Shown here piece by piece: positions 5,717 to 37,895 of a DNA stretch of 64,000 nucleotides. Position 1 is the first letter of the stretch; every line of letters begins with the position of its first letter. Under the pieces are notes generated by a model. That model did no database searches. It was not told the origin of the DNA and was given only the letters and a program-made list of their open reading frames with translations. The position numbers and the translations under genes are program-made. This stretch comes from Nitrospirota bacterium. Its GTDB lineage: Bacteria; Nitrospirota; JACRHJ01. The stretch is from the NCBI GenBank assembly GCA_016212105.1, contig JACRHJ010000035.1:17331-81330 (forward strand), read 5' to 3'.

Positions 5717-8128
5717 ATGTCCAGGACAAGGCTCCCCCGTTCTCTAAAGAAAAAACTGCATTTCCCGCGCGTGCCGAGCATCAAGTGGAAGGTGGTCGCG
5801 GTCGCGGTCGTCTGCTTCCTCTCCATCGCCGCGGGCTCAGGCTACGCGATATTCGACTCGCTGACGGCCGACCTCCCCAAGATAACCTCGCTCAAAAACT
5901 ACAAGCCGCCGGTGGGCACGCGGATATTCTCGGCGGACGACCACCTCATCGGCCGTATAAAGGTGGACAAGGGCATATTCGTCCCGCTCGCACAGATACC
6001 GGACAGCCTGAAAAAGGCGGCGGTCGCGGTCGAGGACGCGCGTTTTTATACGCACAAGGGCATCGACCCGCAGGGGATACTGCGCGCGGTGTTCAAGGAC
6101 GTCCTGTCCATGAGCCTCAAGGAGGGCGGGAGCACCATCACCCAGCAGCTCACCAAGGTCTACTTCCTGACGCCGGAGAAGAGCCTGAAACGGAAGCTGA
6201 AAGAGGTCGTCCTCGCGCGCAAGATGGAGCAGCAGCTCACCAAGGACGAGATACTCGAACTGTACCTGAACAAGATATACTTCGGGCACGGGGCGTACGG
6301 CGTCGAGATGGCAGCGCGCACGTACTTCGGGAAGAGGGTGGGCGACCTCACGCTCGGCGAGTCTGCGGTAATAGCCGGGCTGATACGCTCCCCGCTCAAC
6401 TACTCCCCGTACAACAACATGGAGCGCGCGCGGAACAGGCAGAAGACGGTGCTCGGCAGGATGGTGGACGAGAAGTACATCACCCAGGGCCAGGCGGACA
6501 AGGCCTACGCCCAGCCGATGGTCCTCAAGAACCTCCGAGTCCACGAGGAGGTCGCGCCGCACCTGGTAGAGCAGATACGCATGTACCTGGAGAAGAAGTA
6601 CGGCGTGGACAAGGTCTACAACGAAGGCCTCGAAGTCAGGACGACCATAAACTACCGTATGCAGGAGGCGGCGCAGAAGGCGGTCGAGGAGGGGCTCCGA
6701 GAACTCGACAAGAGGCAGGGCTACCGGGGCCCGGTCAGCCGCCGGGACCCCGAGGAGATGAAGAAGTTCCAGGACGACCCGCCGGCCGGACGCGACCTGT
6801 TCAAGAGGGGCGAGATAATGTTCGCCACCGTCCTGAAGGTGGACAAGGCCTGGGCGCTGGTGTCGTCGAGGGGTGGCACGGGCTACATCTCCCTAAAGGA
6901 CATGGAATGGGCAAAGCTCCTTCCAGGCCAGACCTGGAAAGACGCCAGCGCAAACAACAAGAAGGTAGCATCGGACATCCTCAGGCCTGGCGACGTCGTG
7001 CAGGTCAGGTTCAGGGACATAGACAAGAAGACCAAGGCGCTGTCGTTCTCGCTGGAGCAGGAGCCGCTCTCCCAGGCCGCGCTGGTCGCCATAGACCCGT
7101 GGGAGGGCAAGGTCGTTGCCCAGGTCGGCGGTTACGACTTCCAGAACAACGAGTTCAACCACGCGGTAAACGCCAGGCGCCAGCCCGGCTCCGCCTTCAA
7201 ACCGTTCGTGTACGCGACCGCGCTCGAGTCCGGTTTCACCCCGGCGTCCATCATGGACGACTCGCCCAAGAGCTACGACGAAAACGCTTGGAAGCCGCAG
7301 AACTTCGACGGCGAGTACTACGGCCCGACCAGGCTCAGGGAGGCGCTGGTCGAGTCCAGAAACGTCGTGACGGTGGACCTCCTGAACCAGGTGGGCGTAA
7401 AGCACGTGGTCACGCTCGCCCAGAACCTCGGCCTCACCGGGCCGTTCACGAAGGACCTGACGCTCGCGCTCGGCTCCTGCGGCGTGACCCCGATGGAGCT
7501 TACAGCCGCGTATACCGCGTTCGCCAACGGCGGCTATTCCGTAAAACCCGTGACCGTGACCCGGATAACCGACTCGCACGGGAAACTGCTCGAGGCCAAC
7601 GAGGCGGCTGTCGAGCAGGTGCTGACGCCAGAGACCGCGTACCAGATAACCAGCATCCTGAAAGACGTCGTGGCGCGCGGCACCGCGAGGCGCGCGTCCT
7701 GGCTCAAATGGCCGGTAGCTGGCAAGACCGGGACGACCAACGACTACAAGGACGCCTGGTTCGTGGGCTACACTCCATACCTCGTCGCCGGGGTCTGGGT
7801 GGGCAACGACGACACAAAGACGCTCGGACGCGGCGAGGCCGGAGCGCGTTCCGCGCTCCCGATATGGATAAACTTCATGGGAACGGCCCTCGGCAGCTAC
7901 CCCCAGGACGACTTCAAGGTGCCGGAAGGCATCACGTTCGTGGACATAGACGCGGACAGCGGGCTCCTCGCCGCCGGGCACAGCAGGAAGGTCGTCTCGG
8001 AGTGCTTCAAGGCCGGCACCGAGCCGACTGACTACACGCCCATGCCCGCGCCAGGAACCGCCGATACGGCCGTGATAGACGCGGACAAGGAGAAGGAGAA
8101 GGCGAGGCGGCTGGAGCAGGCGGATTAG
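5717..8128 (+). CDS. mrcA: Penicillin-binding protein 1A (bifunctional transglycosylase/transpeptidase)
   Basis: Class A PBP that polymerises glycan strands and crosslinks peptides. It is an inner-membrane protein with its catalytic domains in the periplasm. After a basic N-terminus, residues 24-46 form the membrane anchor. The GT51 transglycosylase domain carries 'VEDARFYTHKGID' and 'GGSTITQQLTK'. An OB-like insert ('GEIMFATVLKVDKAWALVSS') precedes the transpeptidase, where 'QPGSAFKPF' (SxxK), 'ESRNVVT' (SxN) and 'KTGTTNDYKDAWFVG' (KTG) are visible. Its 803 aa are normal for PBP1A. The AT-rich unit starting at 8.2 kb lies directly downstream. Confidence 0.95.
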   Translation: MSRTRLPRSLKKKLHFPRVPSIKWKVVAVAVVCFLSIAAGSGYAIFDSLTADLPKITSLKNYKPPVGTRIFSADDHLIGRIKVDKGIFVPLAQIPDSLKKAAVAVEDARFYTHKGIDPQGILRAVFKDVLSMSLKEGGSTITQQLTKVYFLTPEKSLKRKLKEVVLARKMEQQLTKDEILELYLNKIYFGHGAYGVEMAARTYFGKRVGDLTLGESAVIAGLIRSPLNYSPYNNMERARNRQKTVLGRMVDEKYITQGQADKAYAQPMVLKNLRVHEEVAPHLVEQIRMYLEKKYGVDKVYNEGLEVRTTINYRMQEAAQKAVEEGLRELDKRQGYRGPVSRRDPEEMKKFQDDPPAGRDLFKRGEIMFATVLKVDKAWALVSSRGGTGYISLKDMEWAKLLPGQTWKDASANNKKVASDILRPGDVVQVRFRDIDKKTKALSFSLEQEPLSQAALVAIDPWEGKVVAQVGGYDFQNNEFNHAVNARRQPGSAFKPFVYATALESGFTPASIMDDSPKSYDENAWKPQNFDGEYYGPTRLREALVESRNVVTVDLLNQVGVKHVVTLAQNLGLTGPFTKDLTLALGSCGVTPMELTAAYTAFANGGYSVKPVTVTRITDSHGKLLEANEAAVEQVLTPETAYQITSILKDVVARGTARRASWLKWPVAGKTGTTNDYKDAWFVGYTPYLVAGVWVGNDDTKTLGRGEAGARSALPIWINFMGTALGSYPQDDFKVPEGITFVDIDADSGLLAAGHSRKVVSECFKAGTEPTDYTPMPAPGTADTAVIDADKEKEKARRLEQAD

Positions 8129-8191
8129 ACGTTACCGTAGGTTATTGCACGTATCTAATGCCAACGTGTGGCAGGCGGCATAATTATTATC

Positions 8192-8220
8192 TTGACATTG
8201 TCTCTTTAACGATATATGTA
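8192..8220 (+). promoter_or_regulatory. Candidate sigma70-type promoter for the cyclase/radical-SAM operon
   Basis: TTGACA at 8192-8197 (full consensus), 17 bp spacer, TATGTA at 8215-8220. It lies about 90 bp before the preferred start at 8313 and within the AT-rich flank, so the unit seems to bring its own promoter. Confidence 0.55.
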
Positions 8221-8312
8221 TTGAGGATATAGCCCCTTATCGTAAAAGGTTGGTACCTGCAGCAGAGGAGATTCACCATTCTCATCTCTCTGACAAACGG
8301 AGGTTAAGCAGA

Positions 8313-11156
8313 ATGCTGTACATAAGAAACTTATATAATAACGAGTACAATGGGTATACATATGCCAAGATGAAAGGCGAGATAGAAAAGAAACTAATAT
8401 CCAATTTTGATGATGGCATAGTCTTTTATTTGGCCGTAGTCCCAATGGAAGATGCCGGCTCAGAGCATTTGCTAATGGTTGTTAGGCGGCTTGTAATGTC
8501 GCGTCTTAACGGAAAAGCCGATGCCGACTTTGAAAATTTCAAGCTTAAACTTATGGAGCCGGGCTTACTAAGCCGGATTGACTCGTATATATCCGAAAAT
8601 AATTTATCCTCAAAATCACACTTGTATAAACGCTATGAGATAGCACGCCTCTTGTCTGAGAAGGGGTGCTACAAGGAGGGGTTATACCTTTTTGACCTCA
8701 TTTTGAGCGAGAGTGCTAAAACGGATATAGTGTGGTATTTCGCCATGTCAGGTTATGTTGTCGTTCTTCAAAATCGGGGCTTGTTCGCGCAGGCAAAGGA
8801 AATTGCAGATTCGCTGATGGATGCCTGTAATCAGCTTGACGAGAATGTTATTTCAACTGAACAAAAGAACAGCATCCTTTATTTTAGCAATAAACACTAT
8901 GCCACATTATTGAGAAGACTCCATTTTACTGACTTGAGTCGTAAGGTTAGAACTAGCATTATTGCACATTTGGAAGCAGCTTGGAGGTTTTGTCCTTCAT
9001 ATTATGTATGCTTCAGTAAAGGCTTCTTTCATTATTTTATAGGGGAATATGAAAATGCGCTCACCGAGTACAATAATTGCCTTGATATGTTGGAAGGTCA
9101 CGAAAACGAATATTATTTAATTCATCTTAATTGTTGTCTTGCTGAAATGGGATTGCAGAAGAACTTTGAAGCGTCTCATTACACAAGTAGAATATTGCCC
9201 AAGCTTAACAAATACAAAGATAGTGCGGAGAGTTTTCCAAACTTCAAAAATGAAATTAACGACTTTCTCGTTAAATTAATTGAGGATTTTTATAACGGGA
9301 ACGATCCGGATCAAGCCATTCTTCCTGATGTAAGACCAGGTTTTGAGAAGTTGTTGGGTACAAACGAAAGCCTCTATTGCATTAACAACGACTTAAAGAG
9401 AGTTACTGATTATTTTAGGCTTAAAACTTCATCGAGACTTCACGCTTATTTTAAGGAAGAACGCGAGGATGCAGAACGCAAGTTTGCAAACTTTGCTCGC
9501 GTCTTGGACAATTCGCCCACCCTGGCCCCCAGACAAGGTATCGCGCTCTGTGTTGACATCAGGGGCTTTACCAAGATGATGGATGTTGGAGATAATAAAC
9601 GAGCCACTGATAGCCTAAAGATTCTTCGCACACTTCTGCATACATACGTTTCAAGCCATTTCGATGACCTGAACTCTACAGGAGATGGCTATTTGTTCGT
9701 AAAATATACCGACAAGAATACTTCAATAGATGATTATACAACCATGGTTCTCGATATTGTAAGCAAGCTTGAATTAGTCTTCAACGAAATACCAAAAAGG
9801 GCAAAGGTATTGTGCTTAGATGAAGGCTTTAAAATCGGGGCGGGTATTAGTTGTGGTGAATTGATAAGATTGAGGGCAGAGTACAATAGAAGTGTTAGCT
9901 ATTATTTCCTTGGAGATGCTGCCAACAAGGCTACAAGGGTGTGTGATTTCGCCCGGCCGCAGGGTATTGTCATCCATTACAACAGCGAGCATCCATTGAT
10001 TGATAAAGATGTGATAGCAAAAGCTATCACGGTAAAATACGCCAACCTTAAAGGGAAGCCTGGTGAAACATATTGTGTATTGCTCTCGCAGGATGTTAAT
10101 GAGTTGTGTCACGAGTATAGCCACGCGTTCAAATATATCTTTAAGTCTGCAAGTCCTAACGAAAAGAGGATATTTGTCAACTATGGAGAGCCGTGCAAGA
10201 AAGGGTGCATGTACTGTTTAAACCCTAACTCAAAATACGAGACATTTAAGATTAATGATTTTGATGAGGAGCTAAAGAAGTTTTCTGCAACAGATCCATC
10301 AGGCGAGTATTTGGTTTCCTTGGGGTGTGAAAACGAGGCTCTCGACGCAAACAACAAAACAGCGACCACCGAGCTGACGATTCACCTTCTCGATAATACA
10401 AAATACTCAATCCAGATTTCCACCAAGGCTGATGCAGAAACTATTGCCACCTTTATTGATAACCTTGAGGTTGGCTTAAAGGTAGTAAGTAAAGACGACA
10501 TTAAAACACGACTGGTATTCTTGTATTCTTTATGTACCGTAGAGCAATCGCATGTTCTGGAAAAAAACAGGTTCAGCGATGCAGGCGCCAACTCTGAGGA
10601 GCGTGTCAACAAAATAGAAAATGATCTCCAAAGGCTTCTATCGATAGCAAAACGTGGATATAGATTTATACCGTATGTCAAACCCTTCTTGCCGGGTATT
10701 ACAGATAAAGACGTTAAATTGAGAAAGATGTTGTCTGATTTCGATACCGTTGTCGTTGGCTATCCGTATTTTTCGAGGCAGATAATGTATTCGCTCTCGT
10801 CTACGTTATGTAATCAACCGGAAGGTGCCAAGTATTATGACTATTCCAAGTACTTCAGCGACAACGATGTCCTTGCCCTGACCCATCCGCATAGCACTGG
10901 TGATAAGTTGTTTGCGTTTGATTACAAGAAAGAGTTAATGGACTATGTGGCTTCGGTTGAGGGGGTTAATGATAATATAAAGATATTTCTGTCAAGCCCA
11001 TGCGCGGTTGCTTCTTGCAAGGGTGAGACGTGTTCGACAAACGTCGGTGACAGGTCTAAAGAAATTGCGTCTTTACTTTGCAGGAGTCGGGACGCCGAGA
11101 ACTCGGACAGGCGCAAGTGCCCAAATTCCAGTTGTGAGCATAACTCACCGAAATGA
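8313..11156 (+). CDS. Fusion protein: helical repeats + class III nucleotidyl cyclase + SplB-like radical SAM
   Basis: I do not know a described system with this architecture. Residues 1-400 are alpha-helical with TPR-like stretches ('YKEGLYLFDLILSE', 'GEYENALTEYNNCLDML'). Residues 405-600 form a class III cyclase domain. The metal ligands are D415 ('VDIRGFT') and D458 ('STGDGYLF'), 43 residues apart as in active cyclases. The transition-state pair is N538 and R542 ('GDAANKATR'). The base-recognition positions appear to be N454 and Y531, not the Lys/Asp of adenylyl or Glu/Cys of guanylyl cyclases. C628-X3-C632-X2-C635 is a radical SAM cluster motif. Downstream 'ISTKAD', 'LEKNRFSDAGANSEERV' and 'PFLPGITDKD' resemble SplB/photolyase-like radical SAM proteins. 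A C-terminal C897-X4-C902-X4-C907 and 'CPNSSC' may bind another cluster. The ATG at 8313 has 'ggagg' 9 nt upstream; the track's TTG at 8250 has none. Codon use is AT-rich, which suggests transfer. Confidence 0.8.
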   Translation: MLYIRNLYNNEYNGYTYAKMKGEIEKKLISNFDDGIVFYLAVVPMEDAGSEHLLMVVRRLVMSRLNGKADADFENFKLKLMEPGLLSRIDSYISENNLSSKSHLYKRYEIARLLSEKGCYKEGLYLFDLILSESAKTDIVWYFAMSGYVVVLQNRGLFAQAKEIADSLMDACNQLDENVISTEQKNSILYFSNKHYATLLRRLHFTDLSRKVRTSIIAHLEAAWRFCPSYYVCFSKGFFHYFIGEYENALTEYNNCLDMLEGHENEYYLIHLNCCLAEMGLQKNFEASHYTSRILPKLNKYKDSAESFPNFKNEINDFLVKLIEDFYNGNDPDQAILPDVRPGFEKLLGTNESLYCINNDLKRVTDYFRLKTSSRLHAYFKEEREDAERKFANFARVLDNSPTLAPRQGIALCVDIRGFTKMMDVGDNKRATDSLKILRTLLHTYVSSHFDDLNSTGDGYLFVKYTDKNTSIDDYTTMVLDIVSKLELVFNEIPKRAKVLCLDEGFKIGAGISCGELIRLRAEYNRSVSYYFLGDAANKATRVCDFARPQGIVIHYNSEHPLIDKDVIAKAITVKYANLKGKPGETYCVLLSQDVNELCHEYSHAFKYIFKSASPNEKRIFVNYGEPCKKGCMYCLNPNSKYETFKINDFDEELKKFSATDPSGEYLVSLGCENEALDANNKTATTELTIHLLDNTKYSIQISTKADAETIATFIDNLEVGLKVVSKDDIKTRLVFLYSLCTVEQSHVLEKNRFSDAGANSEERVNKIENDLQRLLSIAKRGYRFIPYVKPFLPGITDKDVKLRKMLSDFDTVVVGYPYFSRQIMYSLSSTLCNQPEGAKYYDYSKYFSDNDVLALTHPHSTGDKLFAFDYKKELMDYVASVEGVNDNIKIFLSSPCAVASCKGETCSTNVGDRSKEIASLLCRSRDAENSDRRKCPNSSCEHNSPK

Positions 11157-11944
11157 ACACTGATATAGAGAGATGGATAGTTTCCCGGTTGAGCGGGAAA
11201 AATCAGGACGCTTCGGATCAAAGCCATGACCTGGACCACTTCATGCGTGTTAACAATATCGCGCGCAAGTTGTTGAGTTTGTTTGAGCATGACAATCCGG
11301 CAATCCAACTGGAATATGAAGACCGAATAGTGTTGTCATCGGCATGCTTGTTGCACGATATAGGCGACAAAAAGCTATGCGGCGGGATAGACATGCGAGA
11401 GAGAAATATAAGGGATTTTCTTGGCATGGGCGTGGCCGAGTTGACTATTACGCCTGACGTTGTGAGCAGAACATGTATGATTGTTTCCAAGGCATCGTTC
11501 AGTGATTTTGTTGCGGAGAGAGACAAGAAAAACAGAAGAGGTTTGTGGAGTGAAAATGACAATCTGGTTTGCGATATTCTTGAGGATTCGGATAGAATCG
11601 ACGCTATTGGGGCCGTAGGGATTGCAAGGTGCCTTGCATTTAAAAAGAATGTAGGGATATTAAAACCGAATGAAAGGCCGCGGACATTAAGCGAGTTAGG
11701 GAGGGCCGCAACTTGTGACGTGGAATACAGGTCGGCCATTACTCACTTTTTCGAGAAATTGCTACATATTCACAAGAACCTTAATCTGGATGTGAGTAAA
11801 CGATTTGCTCAAGACAGACATGAACTGACGGTTAATTATCTTAAAGCGTTTCTTGAAGAATACAAAATGACATCCGAAGAATATATTCCAACGATAATGG
11901 AATTGCAGGAGATGTGTTCAAATACCAATTGGTATGAACGCTGA
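11153..11944 (+). CDS. HD-domain phosphohydrolase (YedJ-like), partner of the cyclase/radical-SAM protein
   Basis: HD-superfamily metal phosphohydrolase, 263 aa, cytosolic. Ligands in order are 'SHDLDHFMRV' (first His), 'CLLHDIGDKK' (HD) and the later Asp in 'EDSDRIDAIGAVGIAR', a signature of the YedJ-type HD group. The tail 'ITHFFEKLLHIHKN...AQDRHELTVNYLKAFLEEY' also fits that group. Its ATG overlaps the upstream stop by 4 nt (ATGA), and it shares the AT-rich codon use, so both genes were probably acquired and are translated together. By inference it may hydrolyse a nucleotide made or used by the upstream protein. The substrate is unknown. Confidence 0.85.
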   Translation: MNTDIERWIVSRLSGKNQDASDQSHDLDHFMRVNNIARKLLSLFEHDNPAIQLEYEDRIVLSSACLLHDIGDKKLCGGIDMRERNIRDFLGMGVAELTITPDVVSRTCMIVSKASFSDFVAERDKKNRRGLWSENDNLVCDILEDSDRIDAIGAVGIARCLAFKKNVGILKPNERPRTLSELGRAATCDVEYRSAITHFFEKLLHIHKNLNLDVSKRFAQDRHELTVNYLKAFLEEYKMTSEEYIPTIMELQEMCSNTNWYER

Positions 11945-11986
11945 TTTCCCCTTGCCCTTTCCCCCGTACCCTGCTAATATTCCCCC

Positions 11987-13204
11987 ATGTTTATAAGGGC
12001 CTGCATTATAGCCGTCCTGACGTCGGCGGCGCTCCTCACGTCCGCGCCCGCGCGCGCCGCGGACGACCCGTCGAAGGCCAAGACCGAGCTTGAGCGCATC
12101 CAGAGAGAACTCACAGGCATAAAGAAGAAGGCCACCGAGACCGGCAAGAAGGAGAAGTCCGTCCTGACCGAGATCGAGAAGATGGACCGGAAGCTCTCGG
12201 CCAAGCGGGCCGAGGTGAAGAAGCTGGAGAAGCACTTGGGCAAGGTCAGTTCGGAACTCGAAACCACCGCGCAGGAGATGGAAAACACGAACAGCAAGCT
12301 CGCAGAGAGGCAGGGCTCGCTCAGGGAGCGGCTCCGTGCGATGTACACTGCGGGACGTGCAGGCGGGGCATGGGCGCTGCTCATGACCGGCGACTACGGG
12401 GGTACGCTCAAGCGGTACAAGTACCTCTCCGTGATGTCCCAGAGGGACAAGACGCTGGTGGACAGGTACGCGAGCGACCTCGACGAGCTGGCCCGCCACA
12501 GGGAGCTCCTCGGCGAGAAGCGCAGGGACTACGACTCCCTGAGGGCGGCCCGGGACAAGGAGGCGAAAAAGGTCGCGGCGCAGGAGGAGGACAAGAAGAG
12601 GCTGCTCGTCACCATAAGGAAGCAGAAGGGCTCCTACGAGGCGATGGCGAGGGAGCTGGAGGAATCGAGCAGGAGGATGCAGGCGCTCATCCAGAGGATC
12701 GAGGCCGAGTCGAAGGCGCGCGAGAAGGCGGCCTCGAAGCCGCCAGCGTCCGGCGCCCCCGGCGCCCCGAAGCCCCATGTCGCGGCCGCTCCGCCCGGCA
12801 GTTTCCCGTCCCTCAAGGCCGGGCTGGACTGGCCGGTGGCCGGGAAGGTCATAAGCCGGTTCGGCAGGCAGAAGCACCCCGATTTCGACACGTACATAGA
12901 CAAGAAGGGGATAGAGATACAGGCGGGGGTGGGCTCGGACGTTCGCGCGGTCGAGGCGGCCGAGGTCGCCTTCGCCGACTGGTTCAAGGGGCTCGGCCTG
13001 GTAGCGATACTGCACCACGGGGGCGACTACTACACGGTATACGCCCACCTCTCGGGACTCAGGGTGAAGACGGGCGACCGGGTGTCGAAGGGCCAGAACA
13101 TAGCCTCGGTCGGGGACTCGGGCGCGTCCGGGCCCTCGCTCTACTTCGAGGTCAGGCGCGGGGCGTCCGCCCAGGACCCGCTCCGGTGGCTCAGGAGAAG
13201 GTAA
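11987..13204 (+). CDS. envC: EnvC-like murein hydrolase activator (degenerate LytM/M23)
   Basis: Secreted protein with signal peptide at residues 1-24 ('LTSAPARAADD'), a long coiled coil (about 30-255), a Pro/Ala linker and a C-terminal LytM/M23 fold, 405 aa. The fold is clear ('GKVISRFGRQKHP', 'YTVYAHLSGLRVKTGDRVSKG', 'GPSLYFEVRRG'). The zinc ligands are not: the HxxxD site reads 'KKGIEI' and the last His is Tyr ('LYFEV' for LHFEV). That fits EnvC, which activates amidases at the division site rather than cutting murein. The next gene is an S41 protease, an order common in Deltaproteobacteria (ftsEX-envC-ctpA). Confidence 0.85.
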   Translation: MFIRACIIAVLTSAALLTSAPARAADDPSKAKTELERIQRELTGIKKKATETGKKEKSVLTEIEKMDRKLSAKRAEVKKLEKHLGKVSSELETTAQEMENTNSKLAERQGSLRERLRAMYTAGRAGGAWALLMTGDYGGTLKRYKYLSVMSQRDKTLVDRYASDLDELARHRELLGEKRRDYDSLRAARDKEAKKVAAQEEDKKRLLVTIRKQKGSYEAMARELEESSRRMQALIQRIEAESKAREKAASKPPASGAPGAPKPHVAAAPPGSFPSLKAGLDWPVAGKVISRFGRQKHPDFDTYIDKKGIEIQAGVGSDVRAVEAAEVAFADWFKGLGLVAILHHGGDYYTVYAHLSGLRVKTGDRVSKGQNIASVGDSGASGPSLYFEVRRGASAQDPLRWLRRR

Positions 13205-34031: not shown

Positions 34032-34128
34032 CCTGCCCTACCTTCCCTGCCCACATAAGAACATGCGCATATATCCAACATACTTATACTATATTTACAA
34101 TTAACAGGTATTAACCTTAACTTTTCCA

Positions 34129-34157
34129 TTGACATTAAAATCGGCTAATGATACAAA
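34129..34157 (+). promoter_or_regulatory. Candidate sigma70-type promoter before the endolysin cassette
   Basis: TTGACA at 34129-34134, 17 bp spacer, TACAAA at 34152-34157. The region is AT-rich. Transcription from here would pass a terminator at 34249-34284 before reaching the endolysin-like gene. Confidence 0.5.
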
Positions 34158-34163
34158 TGCGGG

Positions 34164-34284
34164 TGTAAGACTGCACTACCGCGATTTGGGAAGTATAGTA
34201 CCATGTTCGGCCAGGGTGTACGTCAGCCGCGTAATATTAGTTCAGGCTAAAGCCCGCACCGGGAATGGTGCGGGCTTTTTTATA
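34164..34284 (+). ncRNA. Candidate small RNA or attenuator leader
   Basis: The stretch between a consensus-like promoter and a textbook intrinsic terminator is about 120 nt and has no long ORF. It could be a free small RNA. Alternatively it is a leader: a 15-codon ORF (34203-34250) with 'gggaag' upstream ends exactly at the terminator stem. No known RNA family was recognised. Confidence 0.35.
34249..34284 (+). terminator. Intrinsic terminator
   Basis: 'agcccgcacc' and 'ggtgcgggct' (34251-34260 and 34267-34276) form a 10-bp stem with a 6-nt loop, followed by TTTTTT. Confidence 0.85.
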
Positions 34285-34321
34285 TTTCAATCGTTCCGTG
34301 TGAATTTCGGAGACTGCCACC

Positions 34322-35086
34322 ATGCCCATCAAAGAGCTTGTCTTCAATGGCCCGGTTAAGAGAGACGACAGGGGCGCGAAGGTAGCGCAGGTTCAGGAAT
34401 GGCTTTGCCTCAACGGCTATCAGGTCAAAATAGACAAGGACTTCGGCCCAGCCACCGAACTGGCGGTCAGGCGTTTTCAGAAGTCGAACAGGCTGCCTGA
34501 AACCGGAACGGTCGACGAACCCTGTTTCAACGCCCTGACCACCCCGATGCGGCGCGCGCTCGCCCCCTTGAACGGTGCGGGCAAGACCTTCGGCGGCCTG
34601 GTTGTCAACTATGCAAAACAACACCTCGCCGAACATCCCCTCGAGATAGGCGGGCAAAACAGCGGCCCGTGGGTAAGGCTCTACATGGGCGGCAACCAGG
34701 GTCCGGACTGGCCGTGGTGCGCGGGTTTCGTCTGTTACATCCTCAAGCAGGCGGCCGGCACATCGGGCGTCCCGCTCCCCTTCAAGCCTACCTATGGCTG
34801 CGACTCGATAGCCAGCCAGACACAGCAAAGCGGTATCTTTGTATCTGAAAAGTCGCTGGCAAGCGGGAACGTCCCGAAGAGCGCGATGAAGCCCGGCAGT
34901 ATATTCCTCAACAGGAACTCCAAGAATTCCAGCGACTGGACTCATACGGGCATCGTCACAGCCTTCCGCGAGGATTCGTTCGATACAATAGAGGGCAATA
35001 CGAACGATGCGGGCGACCGCGAGGGCTACGAGGTCTGCAAGCGCATCAGAGGGTACAAGAACACCGACTTCGTAAAGGTTTCATGA
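34322..35086 (+). CDS. Endolysin-like protein: peptidoglycan-binding + CHAP-type domain
   Basis: 254 aa with no signal peptide. Residues 8-75 form a PG_binding_1 domain ('RGAKVAQVQEWLCLNGYQV', 'FGPATELAVRRFQKSNRLPETG'). The rest has a Cys/His pattern of CHAP/NlpC-type amidases: 'DWPWCAGFVCYILKQAAG' (nucleophile Cys) and 'SDWTHTGIVTAF' (His). The protein would cut peptidoglycan, like phage lysins, and needs a membrane pore to exit. It overlaps the following lipoprotein gene (ATGA). The cassette is AT-richer than the neighbours. Confidence 0.82.
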   Translation: MPIKELVFNGPVKRDDRGAKVAQVQEWLCLNGYQVKIDKDFGPATELAVRRFQKSNRLPETGTVDEPCFNALTTPMRRALAPLNGAGKTFGGLVVNYAKQHLAEHPLEIGGQNSGPWVRLYMGGNQGPDWPWCAGFVCYILKQAAGTSGVPLPFKPTYGCDSIASQTQQSGIFVSEKSLASGNVPKSAMKPGSIFLNRNSKNSSDWTHTGIVTAFREDSFDTIEGNTNDAGDREGYEVCKRIRGYKNTDFVKVS

Positions 35087-35433
35087 TAAGGCTTGGACTT
35101 CTCGCGCTGATGCTCGTCGCACTTCCGGGCTGTTTTGCCTTCACCACGACTTGCGATGACGGTTCCAAGGTCCATCATTACCTTGGATATGCACGGGTGA
35201 TAGAAAACCCGCGATATCCCGAAGACGCGAAGTTCGGCGGGCTGGAAGACGAGATATACGGCATCCGCATCGAGAACGGCCTGACCATCGGGTACTCACA
35301 CAGGAAGGAAGAATACTTCCCGTTCGACTGCAAACTGGTAGTCAAGGTTAAGGACAAGGAACAACTGGACGAGGCAGTTAAACTATTATCGCCTATTCTC
35401 AAGGAGGGGTTATGCGTGGAGGTAAGTCAGTAG
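35083..35433 (+). CDS. Small lipoprotein of unknown function (116 aa)
   Basis: Lipobox 'LVALPGC' after a short hydrophobic signal. The mature part is about 100 aa, with two Cys ('TTTCDDGSKVHHY', 'FPFDCKLVVKV') and mixed alpha/beta character. It overlaps the endolysin-like gene by 4 nt and the next gene by 22 nt, so it belongs to the same transcript. No family recognised. Confidence 0.75.
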   Translation: MIRLGLLALMLVALPGCFAFTTTCDDGSKVHHYLGYARVIENPRYPEDAKFGGLEDEIYGIRIENGLTIGYSHRKEEYFPFDCKLVVKVKDKEQLDEAVKLLSPILKEGLCVEVSQ

Positions 35434-36092
35434 TTCTCGTACTCGCGGTTGGGTTGATGGTGTCGGTGCTTGCGACGGGGTGCGCGGGCCGCCAGAACAC
35501 TATAATGTTCGGGACCAACACGCTTATCGGTGTCAAGGTTACAGCCAGGGATACCGCCACGGAGATGCCTGAAGTCAAGATAGGGTACGAGCGCGCCGAG
35601 TTCGTATGGATGCCGTTGATTTCAAGCAACAAGGAGGGGGACCCTGTAGGTACGGTTTGTGAGTCATGCCCGGATTCTTGTACTTATTGCAAGGATCGCA
35701 CAGGAGCATGCACTTGTCCCAAGAAGATGATAGACGGAAAGTTCTTTGCGGGCAAGGATGGCAATGATAAGTTAGACAGCTACTCAGTTATAGCAACGAT
35801 GAGCGGCTCTCTTTCCACTGGAGCAAGCGGTACCAATGGCGGAATAGCGCAGTATTTCGCTACTGGCATTGCGGCGCGCGAGTTAGCAAAGAAAAGCGGG
35901 GCTGCGTTGGTTTCAACTGCGCCATCGGCAGAACTTGAGAAGGCAAAACTCGATACCATGAAGTTCATGGAGGAAACTGAGCAAGCAAAGAAATCTGATG
36001 CAGAAGAGCCCAAAGCAGAAGAGCCCAAAGCAGAAGAGCCCAAAGCAGATGAACCCAAAGCAGATGAACCCAAAGCAGGAGGTGGCAAATGA
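35412..36092 (+). CDS. Lipoprotein with Cys cluster and tandem E/A-E-P-K-A repeats
   Basis: 226 aa. Lipobox 'LATGC'. Mature region starts 'AGRQNTIMFGTNTLIGVKVTA' and carries 'CESCPDSCTYCKDRTGACTC' (six Cys, possibly a metal site or disulfide knot). The C-terminus has five pentapeptide units (EEPKA/DEPKA) encoded by 15-bp tandem repeats. The extended acidic/Pro tail could span the periplasm. The gene overlaps its neighbours at both ends. Function unknown. Confidence 0.72.
   Translation: MRGGKSVVLVLAVGLMVSVLATGCAGRQNTIMFGTNTLIGVKVTARDTATEMPEVKIGYERAEFVWMPLISSNKEGDPVGTVCESCPDSCTYCKDRTGACTCPKKMIDGKFFAGKDGNDKLDSYSVIATMSGSLSTGASGTNGGIAQYFATGIAARELAKKSGAALVSTAPSAELEKAKLDTMKFMEETEQAKKSDAEEPKAEEPKAEEPKADEPKADEPKAGGGK
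36000..36074 (+). repeat. Tandem 15-bp repeat, five units, inside the lipoprotein gene
   Basis: Units 'gcagaagagcccaaa' (three) and 'gcagatgaacccaaa' (two), in frame, coding AEEPK/ADEPK. Unit number can vary by slippage without breaking the frame, because 15 is a multiple of 3. Confidence 0.95.
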
Positions 36093-36274
36093 GCAAGCTA
36101 CTCGACAAGCTGATAGAGGCAAAAGAAAAAGGTGTAACCCTCGCAGTTGCGCTGAACGGGAAAGAACTCATAGTCAAAGTCGAGGCTGAGGACAACGAGC
36201 TCATAACCATAAAGGACACCAAGAGCACTCGCAAATACTACCTTCATTATACGGCGGTTGTCTTGTGCGGCTGA
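36089..36274 (+). CDS. Small hypothetical protein (61 aa)
   Basis: 'SKLLDKLIEAKEKGVTLAVAL', then an acidic-mixed segment, and a 'YYLHYTAVVLCG' end. Starts in the stop codon of the preceding gene (ATGA) with 'caggagg' upstream, so coupling is likely. No family recognised. Confidence 0.6.
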   Translation: MSKLLDKLIEAKEKGVTLAVALNGKELIVKVEAEDNELITIKDTKSTRKYYLHYTAVVLCG

Positions 36275-36293
36275 GGACAACAGGGAGGTTAAT

Positions 36294-36734
36294 ATGGGCA
36301 TTTCTGACCTGCTAACTTTCTTGACATTGGGCGCATTTCTCGGTGCGCTCGGTCAAGGCGCAAGGGTTATCGTTGGGATAAAAAAGATGAATGACGAGGC
36401 GGCCGCCACCGGCTTGCAGTCGAAAGACCTCTTCGCAGCAAACCAGTTATTGTTAAGCCTTCTCATCGGAGCAGTAGCAGGAGGCATTGCGACTTTCTTC
36501 TACATTACCGATTCGCAAGCTGACATTACAGCCAAGCTCAAGGAACTCTGGTTCACGCTGTTCGCGGCAGGCTATGCTGGAGCTGATTTCATAGAGGGCT
36601 TCATGGCAACCAAAGTGTCGGCACTTTCAGCGCCAACGGCGGCAGCGTCATCCCAGGTAGGAACCTTAATGGAAAGTGGCGGCTCTGGAGCCAACGCAAC
36701 ACCGCAAGTTCAGCAACTAATGGAGTCAAAGTAA
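36294..36734 (+). CDS. Small membrane protein, holin-like by topology
   Basis: 146 aa from ATG 36294 with 'ggagg' upstream. Two or three hydrophobic segments ('LLTFLTLGAFLGALG', 'LLLSLLIGAVAGGIATFFYI', 'LWFTLFAAGYAGADF') and a polar Ala/Ser tail. Holins are short multi-helix membrane proteins that let endolysins out, so this is a candidate, but no sequence signature confirms it. It ends just before a strong hairpin. Confidence 0.5.
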   Translation: MGISDLLTFLTLGAFLGALGQGARVIVGIKKMNDEAAATGLQSKDLFAANQLLLSLLIGAVAGGIATFFYITDSQADITAKLKELWFTLFAAGYAGADFIEGFMATKVSALSAPTAAASSQVGTLMESGGSGANATPQVQQLMESK

Positions 36735-36775
36735 GAGAAGCCCCCGCCTCCGCAAGAGGCGGGGGCTTCTCTTAA
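36733..36775 (+). terminator. Strong intrinsic terminator (18-bp stem)
   Basis: 'aagagaagcccccgcctc' (36733-36750) pairs with 'gaggcgggggcttctctt' (36756-36773), loop 'cgcaa'. The 3' arm ends in an A/T-rich 'cttctctt', and an A-rich string follows. Shares its core with the hairpin at 37861. Confidence 0.75.
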
Positions 36776-36790
36776 AAGAAAAGGGGCGAT

Positions 36791-37843
36791 ATGGCTGATG
36801 AGCAGTTTTATGTCCATTCTTTGAAGCACATTGAGAATGCAACTGAAGAACACCTATTCGCCAGCATGTTGAGCATCGAAACCGAGTTCGATATTCTGAA
36901 ATCAAGGCTTAGTGCTACCAATGAGCCGTTCACAATAGATATCATAGCTCAGTTAGATATAAGGATCAGCCTGCTTAGAAAAACTCTTGAAGACGGCAAG
37001 AGCAAAGGGCCTGATAAGAAAAGTGTATTCTTTCGCGAGTCGGCCCATAGAATAGACGAGGATTTTATTCTGTTACGAAACAGGGAGGAATTAATTACAG
37101 TCGCACTCACTATTCTTGACAATCTCCATTTCACAGATCTACCCATAGAAATAGTAAACGTCTGGGATAAGAAAGTAACGGATGTAGTAGAAATTCTCGA
37201 AAATATCCCATCAAGATGCGCAAACGATGCGAACTCATTGGCTGAACCACGAATTAACTTAAAGGCGGCATTGAACGTGGTAAACAGGAGTCTTGATGGC
37301 AACTATAATGAACTATACATGGTAAAGTATTGTCGCGTCTTTCAGGGTGCCGTAGTACTGTTTATTCTGTCCTCGTTAGCTGCTTTACGAAGTATTGATA
37401 GTGCAGTCGATAAAACGCTATTATCATATGTCTATTATTGTGCACTCGGCGCTCTCGGTGGGAGTCTCAGTTCACTGCTTTCCAATGCACAAGGGCTATC
37501 AAAGGGTAATTTCTTCAATAATATCTTTCTGAACGTGTTCTCACGACCAATCATCGGAGCCGCCTCAGCTTTGGTTATGGTTCTTGTCGCAAAAAGCAGG
37601 TTATTGTTCGGCATAGGTTTAGACAAGCCCGGCATCGAGAATCCACTACTTATTCTACCTGTAGCAAATGTTGAAGCTGCATACCGGGTACTAAGCATAG
37701 CTTCTGGTTTCGGGGGAGAAAGATGGTTGAAGTCTACAATGGACCAGTTAATATCAAAGCTCACAGTCTATGCCAGCAGGAACACCGCACCTACAAATAC
37801 CCCCGCGCCTCCCGCCCAGGATACTTCCCAAACGAACACATAA
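36791..37843 (+). CDS. Hypothetical membrane protein (350 aa)
   Basis: The N-terminal 170 residues are helical and charged. Residues 185-290 carry three to four hydrophobic segments ('VVLFILSSLAALRSI', 'LSYVYYCALGALGGSLSSLL', 'IIGAASALVMVLVA'). 'GALGGSLSSLLS' looks like a conserved glycine-rich helix. The tail is Thr/Pro-rich. The ATG has 'aagggg' upstream. Coding usage is AT-rich. It stands alone between two related terminator hairpins. No family recognised. Confidence 0.65.
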   Translation: MADEQFYVHSLKHIENATEEHLFASMLSIETEFDILKSRLSATNEPFTIDIIAQLDIRISLLRKTLEDGKSKGPDKKSVFFRESAHRIDEDFILLRNREELITVALTILDNLHFTDLPIEIVNVWDKKVTDVVEILENIPSRCANDANSLAEPRINLKAALNVVNRSLDGNYNELYMVKYCRVFQGAVVLFILSSLAALRSIDSAVDKTLLSYVYYCALGALGGSLSSLLSNAQGLSKGNFFNNIFLNVFSRPIIGAASALVMVLVAKSRLLFGIGLDKPGIENPLLILPVANVEAAYRVLSIASGFGGERWLKSTMDQLISKLTVYASRNTAPTNTPAPPAQDTSQTNT

Positions 37844-37860
37844 GCGTTAAGTACGTTTAT

Positions 37861-37895
37861 GCCCCCGCCTCCCCCGGAGGCGGGGGCTTCTCTTT
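37861..37895 (+). terminator. Hairpin terminator, related to the one at 36733
   Basis: 'gcccccgcctcc' pairs with 'ggaggcgggggc' around a 3-nt loop, followed by 'ttctctttcccc'. The 'ggcgggggcttctctt' core is shared with the hairpin at 36733-36775. Confidence 0.7.

Follow-up and report, generated by a model that had tools for sequence, protein, structure and literature searches.

Introduction

The type 10 secretion system (T10SS) comprises a holin, an endolysin, and two spanins encoded outside a phage, and its cargo is released by lysis, as in ChiWXYZ of Serratia marcescens and YenLC of Yersinia entomophaga (PMC10847048). Phage cassettes have been described as the likely ancestors of such lysis cassettes. 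In this study, we analyzed a 64,000-nucleotide stretch of DNA (hereafter, the window; contig JACRHJ010000035.1, positions 17,331 to 81,330 of the forward strand) from a Nitrospirota bacterium, whose assembly (GCA_016212105.1) comprises 3.05 Mb in 61 contigs and is 93.8% complete. The window carries a 3.9-kb set of six genes, which code for a signal-less lysin, two lipoproteins (lip116 and lip226), a protein of 61 amino acids (aa) designated as p61, and membrane proteins of 146 and 350 aa (mem146 and mem350). An earlier note, made from the sequence alone, had proposed these six open reading frames (ORFs), including a peptidoglycan-binding/CHAP-type lysin, as a lysis cassette of possible phage or tailocin origin, and all of them are present. 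With a probability of roughly 45%, we read the set as a modular envelope-lysis cassette that was horizontally acquired and is of bacterial rather than phage provenance. A logic related to that of the T10SS seems here to be built from bacterial modules; if this is true, programmed lysis for release or immunity would be commoner than thought, and the locus would provide a defined small operon for study. A literature search on the gene combination retrieved no description of this set.

The cassette resembles the T10SS in that it is a compact chromosomal gene run outside a phage and contains a leaderless endolysin, a holin candidate, and envelope lipoproteins. A signal-less endolysin outside a phage, one of the features by which such cassettes are recognized, is present. 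However, the cassette lacks an i-spanin/o-spanin pair, its lipoproteins belong to a different family, and it has no known regulator or cargo; its gene order is lysin, lipoprotein, lipoprotein, small protein, and holin-like protein, whereas the T10SS order is holin, endolysin, and spanin. Neither an i-spanin, with an N-terminal transmembrane segment and a periplasmic coiled coil, accompanied by an o-spanin, nor a u-spanin was found: both candidates are lipoproteins, and the family of lip226 (the lip2 family) is a non-spanin family. We therefore do not file the cassette as a T10SS.

Results

A foreign insert at the junction of mlaD and an M16 peptidase gene

The six ORFs, all on the plus strand, lie between the end of mlaD (34031) and the stop codon (37923) of an M16 peptidase gene encoded on the opposite strand. 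The stop codons of these two flanking genes are 3,891 bp apart here, whereas the same junction measures 1 bp in three genomes of a sister genus (G001, G002, and G003), which places the insert beyond chance; in two others, the contig breaks near the junction or the flank differs. Relatives of the lysin, lip226, mem146, and mem350 were sought in five same-family genomes, and none was found. The GC content at third codon positions (GC3) is, in gene order, 0.75 (lysin), 0.64 (lip116), 0.53 (lip226), 0.61 (p61), 0.55 (mem146), and 0.43 (mem350), against 0.84–0.90 in the genes flanking the insert, and the overall GC content of the cassette genes is 0.43–0.58. The AT richness reported previously is accordingly real relative to the surroundings. 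The 3.9-kb set is a horizontally acquired foreign insert, in line with the earlier idea of a self-contained acquired unit. No phage gene, integrase, or structural gene lies beside the cassette, and, as had been noted, the cassette itself holds no phage structural gene.

The first five genes form a chain in which three successive overlaps (4, 22, and 4 bp) are followed by a 19-bp gap before mem146, and the run ends at a Rho-independent-type terminator (36732–36774, plus strand) detected by a terminator scan. The run of overlapping genes proposed previously therefore extends over these five genes, but not over the mem350 gene, which forms a separate unit behind the terminator. A second terminator from the same scan (37861–37895, plus strand) ends the insert. 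The two terminators, one on either side of mem350, are 91% identical over 34 nt, a possible trace of separate acquisition; together, the duplicated terminator and the GC3 gradient suggest that mem350 was acquired separately from the other five genes.

Upstream of the lysin gene is an AT-rich leader (34032–34321, plus strand), which follows the mlaD stop codon and which we take as non-coding. The earlier note had let the cassette begin at 34129, a position within this presumed leader; the lysin gene itself starts at 34322. By eye, a TTGACA is seen at 34129 with a TACAAA 17 nt downstream, a pair that the promoter scan does not list. The leader also contains a terminator-like hairpin at 34249–34278 (terminator scan; fold z of -2.4), and its comparison with Rfam gave chance-level matches only.

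A leaderless lysin with mostly chromosomal relatives

The lysin (254 aa; 34322–35086, plus strand) matches PG_binding_1 (PF01471, E = 2.2e-13) and CHAP (PF05257, E = 1.7e-6), both above the curated Pfam cut-offs, and Cys133, His208, Glu224, and Asn226 of the CHAP domain are invariant in an 11-member alignment. Judging from its sequence, the protein is a peptidoglycan hydrolase with both domains and the catalytic residues in place. We looked for a signal peptide in the lysin and found none. Relatives were located at at least 110 places in genomes, and the best 80 were fetched and read (L080–L159). By a simple hydropathy test, 79 of these 80 chromosomal relatives lack an N-terminal hydrophobic segment, and the leaderless state is thus a trait of the lysin family. 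In this sample, the relatives span more than 12 phyla and are mostly chromosomal and outside phages. The ORFs of 16 of the 80 exceed 400 aa, at least some having, by eye, an extra N-terminal lysozyme-like domain.

Mobile elements also carry this family. Protein p76 of Myxococcus phage Mx4 is a relative with 42.5% identity over 97% of the length, a Paroceanicella plasmid protein (46.5%) has an extra N-terminal domain, and eight viral contigs (L058–L065) hold near-full-length matches, some of which stand beside holin-like neighbors. Despite its likeness to Mx4 p76, the window lysin groups with chromosomal members: in a maximum-likelihood tree, it stands beside the chromosomal L080 and L081 (support 94/73), apart from the viral groups, and around Mx4 p76, relatives of the remaining cassette genes were not found. 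The proposed phage origin is therefore doubtful. When 89 operon neighbors of lysin relatives were compared with PHROGs, no structural phage family was among the 25 listed. One lysin locus, L140, is probably a prophage because it is close to the viral L060.

Two other kinds of neighbor were observed. At L133:8966–13035, the lysin gene overlaps a gene with TIR and SLOG-cluster domains, as if the wall hydrolase were the effector of nucleotide-signal immunity. Proteins of about 520 aa and of no known family, partly in tandem, adjoin the lysin in L093, L108, L114, L119, and L121, the hosts being Nitrospirota, Bacteroidota, and a cyanobacterium.

Tandem lipoproteins shared with other hydrolase loci

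The 116-aa lipoprotein lip116 (35083–35433, plus strand) was recognized from its sequence, and its start codon overlaps the lysin stop codon by 4 bp (ATGA). It occupies the position upstream of lip2 that is held elsewhere by a lipoprotein designated as lip1. With a combined lip1 profile, lip116 was the first non-seed match among 8302 ORFs (E = 0.12), and hhalign against a four-sequence lip1 profile gave a probability of 76%; these matches are only suggestive of homology to lip1. The second lipoprotein, lip226 (226 aa; 35412–36092, plus strand; the 22-bp overlap is with lip116), was assigned to the lip2 family by iterated hidden Markov model searches, which collected about 20 members, and by alignment, in which it has the conserved lipobox Cys, T-x-T, G-Y-x-R-x-E, and ATG-x-AA motifs of the family. 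It consists of a core of four predicted beta strands and a K/E/P-rich tail built from 15-nt repeats. The structure model is of low confidence (predicted local distance difference test, pLDDT, 63), and the fold search gave no match with an E-value below 0.1; pore formers and CsgG appeared only among the non-significant matches and were not used. A lip2-family profile search of the PDB gave no useful match, and lip226 had no match in the phage collection.

Nitrospira-type genomes encode two tandem lip2-type lipoproteins behind a different third one, lip1. A patatin gene follows the tandem lipoproteins in L029, L030, L031, L034, and L039, and an alpha/beta-hydrolase is near them in L032 (assigned by eye), L033, and L036. 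In a gammaproteobacterium (L173), lip1, lip2, and lip3 are followed by a leaderless protein of the DUF2272 family, which we take to be an NlpC/P60-like peptidoglycan hydrolase family. Tandem lipoproteins also occur in L172; at these loci, lip1 and lip2 are often joined by lip3, and no meaningful Pfam family was found for the lipoproteins scanned (L029–L039, L086, L172, and L173). In Methylomonas (L086), the order is papain-like protease, lip1, lip2, patatin, lysin, and PhoD, with the lip2 relative 2.4 kb from the lysin; since the lip2 family is present in 2 of the 321 genomes of the class, this closeness is, by a rough argument, unlikely to be due to chance. The Nitrospira and Methylomonas loci (L029–L039 and L086) thus share with the cassette lip2, probably lip1, and the order of the two, and L086 also shares the lysin; they differ in that a secreted patatin or an alpha/beta-hydrolase serves as the effector in most cases and that no 146- or 350-aa protein is adjacent.

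The earlier suggestion that the lipoproteins could act as spanins is not supported, in that the partners of the lip226 family at other loci are patatins, alpha/beta-hydrolases, and a different peptidoglycan hydrolase. Since these enzymes differ in substrate while the lipoproteins beside them stay the same, a general role in the envelope would be likelier than specific immunity.

A holin candidate and accessory proteins

mem146 (36294–36734, plus strand) was characterized by structure prediction and family searches as a protein of three predicted helices with a conserved GYAGADFIEGF end. PHROG "holin" is matched by three of six members of its family (best E = 0.021), and a holin also ranks first among the viral fold matches (probability 0.93; E = 0.23, not significant), which were obtained with a low-confidence model (pLDDT 61). 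No Pfam holin was matched. LydA-type proteins of holin superfamily III, at ranks 4 and 11 of the viral fold matches, resemble mem146 in their three helices, although the sequence match is weak or absent. These predictions lend weak support to mem146 as a candidate holin, the role that the earlier note had given it. Relatives of mem146 are found in viral contigs L012, L013, L078, and L079. Plain protein searches with mem146, lip226, and mem350 against phages and/or plasmids, and with the mem146 relatives, gave nothing useful.

mem350 (36791–37843, plus strand) has a soluble N-terminal half and a C-terminal membrane domain and was placed through its relatives in L041, L080, L081, L166, and L167. 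The relatives are scattered (5 of the 246 genomes in the phylum, its own included) and lie near papain-like, DUF6765, and peptidoglycan-binding proteins. At L167:6360–11093, a mem350 relative is located beside a peptidoglycan-binding enzyme and, by eye, DUF4157-type-like proteins. Profile searches of the PDB with the membrane-protein families gave no useful match, and profile comparison of the mem146 and mem350 membrane domains gave a probability of 7%.

p61 (36089–36274, plus strand) is possibly Sm/Hfq-like: a PDB profile search up to E 10 gave four matches, of which three are to Hfq and run colinear with it over residues 12–58, but with E values of about 1. It has no relatives in the fetched loci. 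At meaningful E-values, the five non-lysin genes matched no family in Pfam, PHROGs, NCBIfam, or PADLOC.

Recurrence of cassette families near lysin relatives

In the fetched loci, genes were chosen simply as the longest ORFs, and the neighbor lists contain errors, most of them in GC-rich genomes; contigs of metagenome-assembled genomes may also be misbinned, as a long stretch is common to L080 and L081 despite their different phylum names and L090 is labeled as an archaeon. No genome with all six genes was found among these loci, and a conserved six-gene unit was rejected on this basis. Nevertheless, three of the other five families (the mem350 type, the mem146 type, and lip226) each recur beside lysin relatives. 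Upstream of the lysin, L080 encodes a mem350-type protein together with a LysM-amidase, and L081 encodes a mem350-type protein. In two Rhodovibrionaceae (L089 and L112), mem146 relatives precede the lysin by approximately 4.6 and 7 kb, respectively. The islands in which they lie also hold a DUF900 hydrolase, a membrane protein, and what by eye is a haem-peroxidase-like gene, and the L112 island additionally contains TIR and P-loop genes. The picture that the earlier note had named as speaking against a cassette, in which each gene belongs to a known non-lytic family with unrelated neighbors in other genomes, did not emerge.

Discussion

The presence of a leaderless lysin, a holin candidate, and two lipoproteins in one gene run would suit a three-layer lysis device. 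The lysin, made without an export signal, would stay in the cytoplasm until, in response to a trigger, mem146 from the same run permeabilizes the inner membrane, upon which the lysin would reach and cut the peptidoglycan. The site of action of the two lipoproteins would be the periplasm or outer membrane, where they may complete lysis or else position or restrain the lysin, and p61 (perhaps Sm-like) and mem350 may have regulatory or accessory roles. Several observations weigh against this proposal: the complete set does not recur among the fetched lysin loci, no antiholin or transcription regulator is recognizable in the cassette, the E-values of mem146 as a holin are above 0.01 with a model pLDDT of 61, and lip2 is usually found beside secreted patatins or lipoprotein hydrolases, which need no holin. 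We also tentatively consider a wider possibility, namely that the cassette belongs to an undescribed and widely spread mix-and-match envelope-lysis system for programmed lysis or immunity, the parts of which are exchanged between phyla. These parts might, equally tentatively, be tandem lipoproteins, holin-like membrane proteins, and hydrolases, leaderless or secreted, that can replace one another (lysin, patatin, alpha/beta-hydrolase, and DUF2272).

The lysin and membrane proteins could instead form a suicide or immune effector module that kills the infected cell, as the hydrolase arm of immunity and not for protein release. TIR proteins are indeed adjacent or close to lysin relatives in L095, L112, and L133, including the overlap with the TIR–SLOG gene in L133 and the P-loop and TIR genes upstream in L112. 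This explanation is nonetheless unlikely, as TIR occurs in a minority of lysin loci (2 of the 89 operon-neighbor proteins, with the L112 TIR further off), the cassette contains no TIR, nucleotide-signal sensor, or NTPase, and PADLOC gives nothing. Immunity that acts in the periplasm against peptidoglycan hydrolases is known, and the lipoprotein gene directly downstream, overlapping the lysin stop codon, would suit an antibacterial effector that reaches rivals by delivery or release while lip1 and lip2 protect the producer. Yet the unrelated substrates of the lip2 partners (patatin, alpha/beta-hydrolase, and DUF2272) are ill-suited to a specific inhibitor, and neither the contractile sheath (PF04984) nor the sheath of the type VI secretion system (T6SS; PF05943) was found in the genome (93.8% complete), which makes such an effector quite improbable. 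The missing sheath genes also led us to reject a cassette linked to a tailocin or T6SS, and they speak against the tailocin origin considered in the earlier note.

The set might also be an assembly of unrelated passengers without common function, gathered at an insertion-tolerant convergent junction. Its mosaic composition, with GC3 falling from the lysin to mem350, its incomplete conservation, and the position of mem350, which two near-identical terminators enclose as though it had been a separate addition, would agree with this; the overlapping or close starts and stops across five genes and the recurrence of three families near lysin relatives in other phyla argue to the contrary and render it distinctly improbable. 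Finally, the cassette could be a prophage remnant, that is, a decayed phage lysis region, given the lysin relatives in Mx4 and in the viral contigs, some with holin-like neighbors, and the viral relatives of mem146. We regard this as very improbable: the nearest lysins are chromosomal, lip226 is without a match in the phage collection, phage genes are absent, and the insertion is clean, with terminators, rather than decayed. A direct phage remnant was rejected on the grouping of the lysin, the lip226 result, and the clean insertion.

Other features of the window

A second low-GC insert is located at 8250–11944, between a PBP1A-like and an EnvC-like gene (GC 0.42 and GC3 0.39 over 8000–12000). 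It encodes a 968-aa protein in which, by eye, a class III nucleotide-cyclase-like part is joined to a repeat region and to a CxxxCxxC radical-SAM-like motif, and the gene overlaps that of a 263-aa HD-type protein, an unusual combination.

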